This document shows, one piece after another, positions 49 through 28,544 of a stretch of DNA of 36,423 nt. Source of the stretch: Alicyclobacillus pomorum DSM 14955 (GTDB lineage Bacteria; Bacillota; Bacilli; Alicyclobacillales; Alicyclobacillaceae); contig NZ_AXAR01000017.1 in NCBI RefSeq assembly GCF_000472905.1, positions 1-36,423 of the forward strand, written 5' to 3'. Every line of letters begins with the position of its first letter. The first letter of the stretch is position 1. The translations under genes were made by a program, and so were the position numbers. Under the pieces are notes generated by a model that did no database searches, had not been told where the DNA came from, and saw only the letters and a program-made list of their open reading frames with translations.

Positions 49-165
49 TCTGGTGGCAATGGCGGAGGGGAAACACGCGTACCCATCCCGAACACGACCG
101 TTAAGACCTCCAGCGCCGATGATACTTGGGGCGGGAGCCCCTGGGAAAGTAGGACGCCGCCAGGC
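49..165 (+). rRNA. rrf: 5S ribosomal RNA
   Basis: The 5' arm CTGGTGGC (50-57) pairs with GCCGCCAG (156-163) to form helix I. Between them lie the conserved 5S landmarks, including ACCCATCCCGAACACG and the GGGAAAGTAGG-type segment near the 3' end. The length of about 116 nt is normal. Bases 1-48 are taken as the end of the 23S-5S spacer, so the window opens at the 3' end of an rRNA operon transcribed rightward. The ends are approximate by a few bases. Confidence 0.95.
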
Positions 166-441: not shown

Positions 442-912
442 ATGCAAAACAACGGGAGCCTCTTAAAAGTCGTTCTCTTGATGGCTGTTATTTTCCTCAT
501 AGGCGCTATCCTATACTACTTGGGACTGCCCAGTGGGCTGAACGTGCCATTCCTGCTCTCTGTGGGGTACGGAATCCTATCCAATTATTCGGCCATCCTG
601 GCCATTGGTCTGGCTGTGGCCATTGCGAGAGAAAACCAAGGTGCGGCTGGATTGGCTGCTTTCCTGGGATATGAGGTCATCATTCAAGGCGCGACGGCCA
701 TTCAAAACTCCATCGACGCGAGTGATAAAAGCGCGTTTGTTCTTGTTGCTGGACTTATCTCTGGTGTACTTGCCGGCTTAATGTACAACAGATTCTACAA
801 CACAAAACTGCCCAGTTGGCTTGGATTCTTCGGCGGCCGTCGCTTCGTTCCAATGGTCACAGCCTTTGCTTCACTGTTCATCGCGTTGATTCTTGGACAC
901 ACCTGGCACTAA
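442..912 (+). CDS. Half-length PTS EIIC protein (N-terminal half only)
   Basis: This is a 156-aa membrane protein that aligns with the N-terminal half of glucose/GlcNAc-family EIIC. It has LNVPF near residue 32, AIGLAVAIARENQGAAGLA, and a KLPSWLGFFGGRRFVP segment at about residues 122-137, and it stops after the next hydrophobic helix. It lacks the GITEP sugar-site region, the second half of EIIC and any EIIB Cys. The ATG at 442 is chosen because AAAAGGGGG ends 6 nt upstream; the frame is open further upstream but without a ribosome site. The gene is first in the operon, 35 bp before a complete EIICB with its own strong ribosome site. The frame is clean and conserved-looking, so a functional partner subunit is possible, but a relic of tandem duplication cannot be excluded. 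Confidence 0.75.
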   Translation: MQNNGSLLKVVLLMAVIFLIGAILYYLGLPSGLNVPFLLSVGYGILSNYSAILAIGLAVAIARENQGAAGLAAFLGYEVIIQGATAIQNSIDASDKSAFVLVAGLISGVLAGLMYNRFYNTKLPSWLGFFGGRRFVPMVTAFASLFIALILGHTWH

Positions 913-947
913 TTCTTTTGATGCTCAGGCGATAAAGGGGGATACTC

Positions 948-2393
948 ATGCTCGGTCAACTACAGAGAATTGGCAAGGCGCTCATGTTGCCGATTGCCGT
1001 CATGCCCGTTGCGGGCCTCTTGCTGCGGTTAGGGCAACCGGACACGTTGAATATACCGTTCATGGCGGCTGCGGGGAATGCGGTGTTCAACTTCCTACCG
1101 CTTCTCTTTGCGATTGGTATCGCGGTAGGGTTCGCAAGAAACAATCACGGGCTCGCCGGTTTAGCTGGATTTATCTCGTATCAAATCTTGTCCTGGGGCG
1201 CCGTTGCCATCAACAAGGATAACAACCTGAGTTATCTGGGAGCCATCATTTGCGGCCTGTTAACAGGTTGGTTGTTTAACAAGTTTAGTGAAATGAAATC
1301 TCGGTCAAGGATGCTCGAGTACATCGGTGGTGGACGCGGACTCGCCGTCATTCTGATTTCTATTTTGTCCATTGTACTTGCCATTGTGGCTGGACTCATT
1401 TGGCCTTACGTACAAGACCTATTTAATGCGCTCGGTAAGTGGCTGGGCGAAACGGGCGCGATAGGCGCCGGGTTCTACGGTTTGTTCAACCGCTTGCTCA
1501 TTCCGCTTGGTCTCCACCACGTCATCAACACGTACATCTGGTTCGTATATGGAACCTACCACGGCCCACACGGTGTCGTGACGGGTGACCTCAGCCGCTT
1601 CTTTGCGGGCGATCCGCATGCTGGCGGCTACATGGCAGGTATGTTTCCTATCATGATGTTCGGCCTACCAGGTGCTGCATTGGCGATGATTCTGGTCGCC
1701 AAGCCGGAACGACGCAGCGTTGTCGCGGGTGTTCTGGGGAGCGCTGCATTCACCGCATTTCTAACCGGTATCACCGAACCGATTGAGTTTGCATTCATGT
1801 TCCTTGCGCCCGTGCTGTTTGTATTCCACGCGGTGCTCACTGGTGTCTCGATGTTTGTGTGTTACGCGCTGGGTATTCGCGACGGGTTTACGTTTTCGGC
1901 CGGTGTGATTGACTATGTGTTGAATCGAAACTACGCGACCCATGGCTGGTGGATCATCCCCATCGGCTTGGTCTTTGGCGTCATTTACTTTGTGGTGTTC
2001 TACTTTAGCATTAAAGCGTTCGATATCAAGACCCCTGGACGTGAAGACGAAGACGCGAGTGGGCCGGTAGGCGGCGGATTCATCCTTGATGAATATCAGG
2101 TTGCGGGTGACCCCGAACAGCGCACAGATTCAGCAACCTCTGCGAAAGCAAACCCGATGTCTGTTCAGGCCAAGGGGTATGTGGAAGCGCTCGGAGGAGC
2201 GGATAACATCGTGGAAGTGGAAGCGTGCACGACGCGCTTACGGCTCAATTTGAAGGACGTAAGCAAGCTGAATGAGGCTCAGTTGAAGGCCCTTGGTGCC
2301 AGCGGCGTAATCAAGCTGAATCAGCACAATGCGCAGGTCGTCGTGGGTACCATCGCCGATACGCTTGTCGACGAAATGAAGCAGCACATGTAA
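948..2393 (+). CDS. PTS EIICB transporter, N-acetylglucosamine type (NagP/NagE-like)
   Basis: Imports and phosphorylates a hexose, probably N-acetylglucosamine, across the cytoplasmic membrane. The 481-aa protein has an EIIC domain (about 1-370) with FNRLLIPLGLHHV and FLTGITEPIEFAF (Glu277 in GITEP). A hydrophilic linker follows, then a C-terminal EIIB domain with phospho-Cys427 in EACTTRLRLNL. Overall order and wording match Bacillus NagP better than PtsG. There is no EIIA domain, so EIIA must come from elsewhere. The segment that normally reads KLPxxLGFFxGxRxVP is here diverged to MKSRSRMLEYIGGGRGL (from about residue 115), whereas the preceding half-EIIC keeps it. Start ATG 948 has AAAGGGGG upstream. 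Regulation is by the RAT/terminator and cre-like site upstream. Sugar specificity is inferred. Confidence 0.9.
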   Translation: MLGQLQRIGKALMLPIAVMPVAGLLLRLGQPDTLNIPFMAAAGNAVFNFLPLLFAIGIAVGFARNNHGLAGLAGFISYQILSWGAVAINKDNNLSYLGAIICGLLTGWLFNKFSEMKSRSRMLEYIGGGRGLAVILISILSIVLAIVAGLIWPYVQDLFNALGKWLGETGAIGAGFYGLFNRLLIPLGLHHVINTYIWFVYGTYHGPHGVVTGDLSRFFAGDPHAGGYMAGMFPIMMFGLPGAALAMILVAKPERRSVVAGVLGSAAFTAFLTGITEPIEFAFMFLAPVLFVFHAVLTGVSMFVCYALGIRDGFTFSAGVIDYVLNRNYATHGWWIIPIGLVFGVIYFVVFYFSIKAFDIKTPGREDEDASGPVGGGFILDEYQVAGDPEQRTDSATSAKANPMSVQAKGYVEALGGADNIVEVEACTTRLRLNLKDVSKLNEAQLKALGASGVIKLNQHNAQVVVGTIADTLVDEMKQHM

Positions 2394-28365: not shown

Positions 28366-28388
28366 AACCTTGAACCAAATGAATTGGA

Positions 28389-28477
28389 GCCACTAGGGGA
28401 GCTACACTGCTGAGACAAGGGATTTTCCCTTGGACCCTTAGCACCTGAACTGGGTAATACCAGCGTAGGAAAGTGGC
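28389..28477 (+). promoter_or_regulatory. TPP riboswitch (THI element)
   Basis: All hallmark blocks are present in order: P1 GCCACT (28389-28394) with AGTGGC (28472-28477), AGGGGAGC, GCTGAGA, GACCCTTAGCACCTGAACT in outline, then GGGTAATACCAGCGTAGGAAAG. It senses thiamine diphosphate and should shut off the tenA operon. Confidence 0.97.
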
Positions 28478-28544
28478 GTGAAGCAATCGTGTCGGGTCCA
28501 TGCCATTTGTACAATCCGACATTCCTTGCTTCCTACCCCCAGCG

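Follow-up and report, generated by a model that had tools for sequence, protein, structure and literature searches.

A half-length EIIC gene and the complete EIICB gene beside it in Alicyclobacillus pomorum DSM 14955 probably encode the two subunits of an asymmetric EIIC heterodimer, an obligate complex with a single elevator that serves an N-acetylglucosamine (GlcNAc) phosphotransferase system (PTS), a reading drawn from sequence and published structures. As the original prediction held, each protein has what the other lacks. In the analysis, the half-length proteins (halves) keep a conserved cytoplasmic loop and have lost a segment of the first transmembrane helix (TM1), and the complete proteins paired with them (paired fulls) show the reverse.

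The half and full genes

Both genes lie on the forward strand of the window, the whole stretch of 36,423 nucleotides that was analyzed. The half gene (442-912) opens with an ATG behind an AGGGGGA ribosome-binding site; the full gene (948-2393) follows after 35 bases, and the two have separate ribosome-binding sites. The half product (156 residues) consists of the scaffold domain only (TM1-5), without a transport domain and without EIIB, and it was predicted to be just the N-terminal part of a GlcNAc/glucose-type EIIC. This is what the profile matches describe, as the half covers positions 35-177 of 319 in Pfam PTS_EIIC (PF02378; 55 bits, gathering cut-off 30.7) and positions 13-165 of 475 in TIGR01998 PTS-II-BC-nag (109.5 bits, below the curated cut-off of 553.2). 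Its C-terminal end falls one to two residues past the equivalent of PtsG W172, as it does in all 12 halves found, and in PMC11393339 the scaffold domain of E. coli IICB-Glc is compared over residues 4-173. The AlphaFold2 model of the half (pLDDT 90.7, pTM 0.83) has the E. coli and V. cholerae EIIC-Glc proteins as its top solved matches, so that the half matches the scaffold domain of the glucose-superfamily EIIC in structure as well. When the 3.4-Mb genome was searched at the protein level with the half as query, only the half and the full were found at E ≤0.001.

The full product (481 residues; PTS_EIIC plus PTS_EIIB, GlcNAc/glucose superfamily) passed the PTS_EIIC cut-off with 208.6 bits and matched TIGR01998 from end to end with 532.6 bits, slightly below the curated cut-off. 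TIGR01998 is the top-scoring family for both proteins, and the pair is NagE-like yet below the cut-off of that family. The scaffold regions of half and full are 33% identical. The full resembles the EIICBs of the glucose superfamily (E. coli PtsG, V. cholerae EIIC-Glc, NagE) in fold, domain order, substrate site, and EIIB cysteine, and its AlphaFold2 model (pLDDT 87.1) matches solved EIIC-Glc and EIIB structures. It was expected to have kept GITEP and the EIIB cysteine, and both are present: GITEP at 1767-1781, with the equivalents of PtsG T297 and E298, and Cys427 (2226-2228) within the EIIB domain (2154-2390), where the C-x-TRLR pattern occurs in all 12 paired fulls. GLHH (1509-1520), which holds the equivalents of H211 and H212, is also intact. 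Throughout the 12 paired fulls, the EIIB cysteine and the substrate-site equivalents R203, H211, H212, N215, T297, E298, and F337 are retained.

The segment of the type KLPxxLGFFxGxRxVP assigned to the half at residues 122-137 was found there as KLPSWLGFFGGRRFVP (805-852), corresponding to PtsG 139-154. The pattern is matched by 12 of 12 halves, the half of genome G043 having S at F152, and the loop residues are identical across 11 aligned halves. At the other end of the half, the conserved TM1 segment (PtsG 9-26, including M17, P19, and P24) has been lost (442-516), as judged from the alignment and pairwise identity; the full retains it as MLGQLQRIGKALMLPIAVMPVA (948-1013). In the AlphaFold2 models, the first helix of the half is continuous over residues 4-28, and that of the full has a break at residue 14.

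In the full, the family motif was said to be replaced by unrelated residues. KLPxxLGFFGGRRFVP is indeed absent from the TM4-TM5 cytoplasmic loop (1287-1349; residues 114-134), as is the family motif from all 12 paired fulls, but by alignment the segment is a remodeled loop with residual homology in which GG and R/K are retained. None of the 12 paired fulls has P141, F147, F152, V153, P154, or T157 (PtsG numbering), and all of them keep G149; position R151 holds K in seven and R in five, and position F146 holds F in nine and Y in two. The alignment, which sets the full against the remaining 11 paired fulls and the 99 lone EIICBs, also shows a one-residue insertion after the R151 position. Such a loop is not dead; it may retain a function, conceivably that of gating in a homodimer of the full.

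The loop motif in lone EIICBs

The expectation for EIICBs that stand alone was taken from 398 genomes of the class, which were searched with the transport domain only to avoid selection by motif. At least 150 matches were obtained; among the 150 listed, 10 were paired fulls, and the best 100 of the 140 others formed the panel (L176-L193, 80 more loci, L013, and L014). The frameshifted L181, from genome G158, was dropped, leaving 99 proteins equivalent to 46.8 effective sequences, with genome G238 contributing two. Another 80 loci, from a contig-wide pattern scan, were excluded from the motif count because FFGGRRFV was among the scan patterns and would have biased it; one of these loci, L064, is a half.

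In this best-scoring class sample, all 99 lone EIICBs keep FFxGxRFVP on the chain that bears their transport domain, whereas none of the 12 paired fulls has it there. The full motif pattern is present in 98 of the 99 (0/12 paired fulls, 12/12 halves); the exception, L256, has His in place of the first Pro and retains GFFAGKRFVP.

Occurrence in relatives

Among 59 genomes of the order, 12 have an intact tandem pair, one a decayed pair (G048), and two a lone motif-bearing EIICB; 44 gave no match. At the level of the family (41 genomes), the half and full occur in tandem in 11, a lone full EIICB in two, and no match in 28, so the wider set contributes one further intact pair, which belongs to a second family (G043), and the decayed pair. 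Alicyclobacillus kakegawensis (L064) has the pair, and Alicyclobacillus macrosporangiidus (L067) has a lone EIICB. Both lone EIICBs of the order carry RLPDWLGFFGGRRFVP. When the 59 genomes were searched with the transport domain only (window 1425-2390), EIICBs were found in the same 15 genomes.

Every intact half lies next to an EIICB without the motif, and in each of the 12 pairs it is the half that carries it. Relatives with an absent or frameshifted half next to such an EIICB were looked for: the half is intact in 12 genomes, and in G048 half and full have decayed together. Neither the half search nor the transport-domain search of the 59 genomes found an intact motif-less EIICB on its own, which makes 0 cases in the 15 EIICB-bearing genomes of the order and 0 among the 99 lone EIICBs of the class. 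In G048 (L155 5312-9023), the remnants of half and full merge and are interrupted; by eye, an EIIA and a nagA-like gene lie downstream and antiterminator pieces upstream.

Outside the order, G158 was the only genome with a half-length frame among the matches listed in the class search (398 genomes). It was considered as a second kind of half and rejected, as its frame of 176 residues opens an EIICB whose remainder lies in a different frame, with the motif kept. The locus (L058 1480-2840) is a lone EIICB whose frame is broken just past the loop motif, by an error or a real mutation. In a phylum search (398 genomes, E ≤1e-28), the 43 matches listed, some of them frames of 316 to 407 residues, include two of half length, the half of the window itself and G770. 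G770, a 198-residue frame at bases 112-516 of its contig, stands outside the count of halves, as do L077, L129, and L135, which end at contig edges. A plasmid search (265 records) gave one record at 60-80% identity.

In maximum-likelihood trees that included 28 of the 99 lone EIICBs and were rooted at the midpoint, the 12 halves form one clade and the 12 fulls form one clade, a topology that fits one origin. Because the halves form one clade, their co-occurrence with motif-less fulls may represent a single evolutionary event rather than 12. By the transport-domain tree, the nearest relatives of the paired fulls are the lone EIICBs of G023, G025, G170, and G278 (support 100/100), which differ from the pair in being single genes with the motif present and no half found. 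We infer that the half arose by duplication within the lineage; its long branch (0.92), the midpoint root, and an attachment that the tree does not resolve keep this origin at that strength.

Reciprocal losses and selection

The division of conserved positions was assessed in an alignment of the halves and paired fulls (12 each) with the 99 lone EIICBs. Conservation of at least 85% in the lone set picks out 41 scaffold columns. Seventeen of these columns are lost in the half, 12 in the full, and three in both, an overlap that does not fall significantly below expectation (hypergeometric P = 0.15; an overlap this small also arises in 11 of 41 circular shifts). The losses differ in position: those of the half cluster in TM1 (PtsG 9-26) and at 55-63 and 118-122, and eight of the 12 in the full fall within PtsG 132-157. 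Mean pairwise identity in TM1 is 0.42 for the halves, 0.91 for the paired fulls, and 0.74 for the lone EIICBs (n = 12, 12, and 99), and in the loop it is 0.82, 0.55, and 0.77, respectively. This contrast was reached by none of 20,000 column permutations, the blocks having been picked after the pattern was seen.

Synonymous and nonsynonymous changes were compared by the Nei-Gojobori method for 11 of the 12 pairs in nine genome comparisons, of which three have dS <0.6 and six have reached or are close to saturation. In the three, the half has dN/dS values of 0.013, 0.100, and 0.098; the full has 0.012-0.026 in its scaffold and 0.023-0.042 in its transport domain. Purifying selection thus acts on the half, although in two of these genome pairs the constraint is looser than on the full. 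A sequencing or assembly error, or a pseudogene, was considered as the source of the short frame and was rejected in view of its occurrence in 12 genomes, the open frame, and this selection.

Another idea is that the half is a functionless leftover of a duplication. In its favor it can be said that the system is losable (G048 has a decayed pair), but we regard it as very improbable given that the frame is intact and preceded by a ribosome-binding site across 12 genomes from two families, the low dN/dS (0.013-0.100), loop residues invariant in 11 aligned halves, and a leader conserved before the half in 12 of 12. These results give reason not to annotate the short gene as a fragment.

Leader and PTS context

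Upstream of the half on the forward strand lies a leader (331-395) with an antiterminator-like sequence (AGCGTATTACTGC...) that overlaps an intrinsic terminator (hairpin at about 355-389, T run at 390-395). The pattern is one that we take to be that of a BglG/GlcT-type RNA target, a putative assignment made from the pattern and from the antiterminator gene upstream in relatives. The leader could be aligned upstream of the half in all 12 pair-bearing genomes, and the terminator hairpin was called in 11, the exception being G043. Since the conserved leader precedes the half, half and full are probably under one control point.

In relative G004, the upstream gene is an antiterminator by profile, with GlcT as the top model (285 bits, under the cut-off of 320). 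Profile searches also found HPr, EIIA, nagA, and nagB genes downstream of the pair, nagA and nagB lying beyond EIIA and scoring over their cut-offs. The HPr gene in this genome (L144 7846-8151) begins where the full EIICB ends, which places it between the full and EIIA. Genome G043, of the second family, has by profile an EIIA and a complete EI downstream of the pair (L154 1194-4592), and by eye the other relatives have similar neighbors, the antiterminator included.

The A. pomorum genome has its antiterminator, HPr, EI, EIIA, and nagA genes clustered on another contig (C4), with HPr next to EI and with nagA, which scores over its cut-off, next to EIIA and EI. The gene after nagA was named by no NCBIfam model at E 1e-10, so nagB is not confirmed there. 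Profile searches of the genome found EIIA, EI, and the antiterminator once each, and one EIICB. Because these components are single and nagA lies on the same contig, this genome very likely has just one PTS of this type, for GlcNAc, with the pair as its membrane component.

The pair itself adjoins a 5S rRNA (window 49-165) at the start of contig C9, apart from the PTS genes of C4, and further upstream is the contig edge. The convergent genes downstream of the pair are, by eye, presumably those of 2-oxoglutarate dehydrogenase components. A TPP riboswitch scoring above the Rfam gathering score lies at window 28385-28488.

Proposed mechanism and alternatives

The original prediction proposed a two-component channel in which the half supplies the missing part. 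Co-occurrence, selection, and published structures lend partial support to the two-component arrangement; the word channel is wrong, as the family is one of elevator-type carriers. In PMC11393339, the TM4-TM5 loop of E. coli IICB-Glc reaches toward the transport domain of the adjacent protomer, and the inward occluded gate is formed by M17, H211, H212, E298, and F146' of the opposite protomer's loop. According to the same paper, F146' also forms a bond with S286 when the carrier is in its outward state, and S21' and R151 are bonded between the protomers. The backbone of V118 touches the transport domain in the E. coli protein. PMC12900739 likewise describes contact between the loop of the V. 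cholerae EIIC and the neighboring transport domain, and the trans role of the EIIC-Glc loop is derived from structures and simulations (PMC11393339, PMC12900739). F146 and R151 fall in the loop motif, and M17 and S21 in the TM1 segment. In these structures the loop acts in trans and, going by the notation of the E. coli paper, M17 of TM1 acts in cis.

Applied to the pair, the moving elevator would be the transport domain of the full, the sole one in the complex; the full would also bring the substrate-site residues and EIIB, and the half would be a scaffold-only subunit replacing the second protomer at the dimer interface. The TM4-TM5 loop of the half would cross over and act as the gate at the full's substrate site, like the neighbor's loop in EIIC-Glc homodimers. 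One complete gate would be left, made up of TM1 and the transport domain of the full and the loop of the half. For such a complex, we infer a 1:1 stoichiometry and single-elevator transport. Because the half is without a transport domain, its TM1 gate segment would have been freed to change; because the partner half offers no transport domain to gate, so would the loop of the full. The absent transport domain of the half would thus explain most of the losses, with the exceptions of V118 (altered in both half and full), F146 (mostly kept in the fulls), and S21 (a position that is Ala in lone EIICBs).

A less probable arrangement, although one that deserves some weight, would have the full working as a homodimer with its remodeled loop. 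The half would then not be the partner protomer but an accessory or regulatory subunit in the membrane, with a role, for instance, in assembly, stability, or antiterminator signaling. The loop of the full keeps GG, R/K, and often F146 and could still function, and antiterminator genes accompany the pair in relatives. Antiterminator regulators respond to the state of the permease. However, P141, F147, V153, P154, and T157, all lost in 12 of 12 fulls, have a weighted conservation of 96-100% in the lone EIICBs, and an accessory role does not predict that the half should keep the trans-acting loop while losing the TM1 gate segment.

We consider it unlikely that the subunits form higher-order or mixed assemblies, be it two halves with two fulls or an expression-dependent exchange between full:full and half:full complexes with graded activity. 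The separate ribosome-binding sites of the two adjacent genes would permit varied ratios, but a full:full complex would set two remodeled loops against two transport domains, and the conservation pattern argues against this.

Beyond the obligate heterodimer itself, we think it reasonably likely that a homodimer with two elevators passed through duplication of its scaffold to an obligate one-elevator heterodimer with a scaffold-and-gate subunit, convergent with the Q/M organization of TRAP transporters.

Relation to known systems and significance

In solved EIIC-Glc structures, which are homodimers, the TM1 segment and loop motif lie in one chain, whereas here they are split over two, one of which is without a transport domain. 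A search of titles and abstract openings, mostly of papers outside subscription, found no earlier description of a split or scaffold-only EIIC, and the consulted portions of PMC11212667 and PMC10154347 (Alicyclobacillus, EIIC) hold nothing on a split EIIC.

In working principle, the Q and M subunits of TRAP transporters appear to be the nearest known arrangement, the half being scaffold-only as judged from its sequence and model. For PpSiaQM, PMC10942642 describes a Q subunit that is wholly scaffold and Q-M heterodimerization instead of homodimerization; HiSiaQM, according to the same paper, can dimerize. Unlike TRAP Q, the half resembles the transporter's own scaffold domain and bears the gate loop, and the two systems are not known to be related.

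If the heterodimer reading is true, evolution has run a separation experiment that lends independent support to trans gating by the EIIC loop. The pattern suggests that one elevator per dimer can suffice, and the pair is a natural system for mutating loop, gate, and elevator separately. Some bacteria related to Alicyclobacillus would then have a naturally lopsided form of a transporter that is normally built from two identical proteins.
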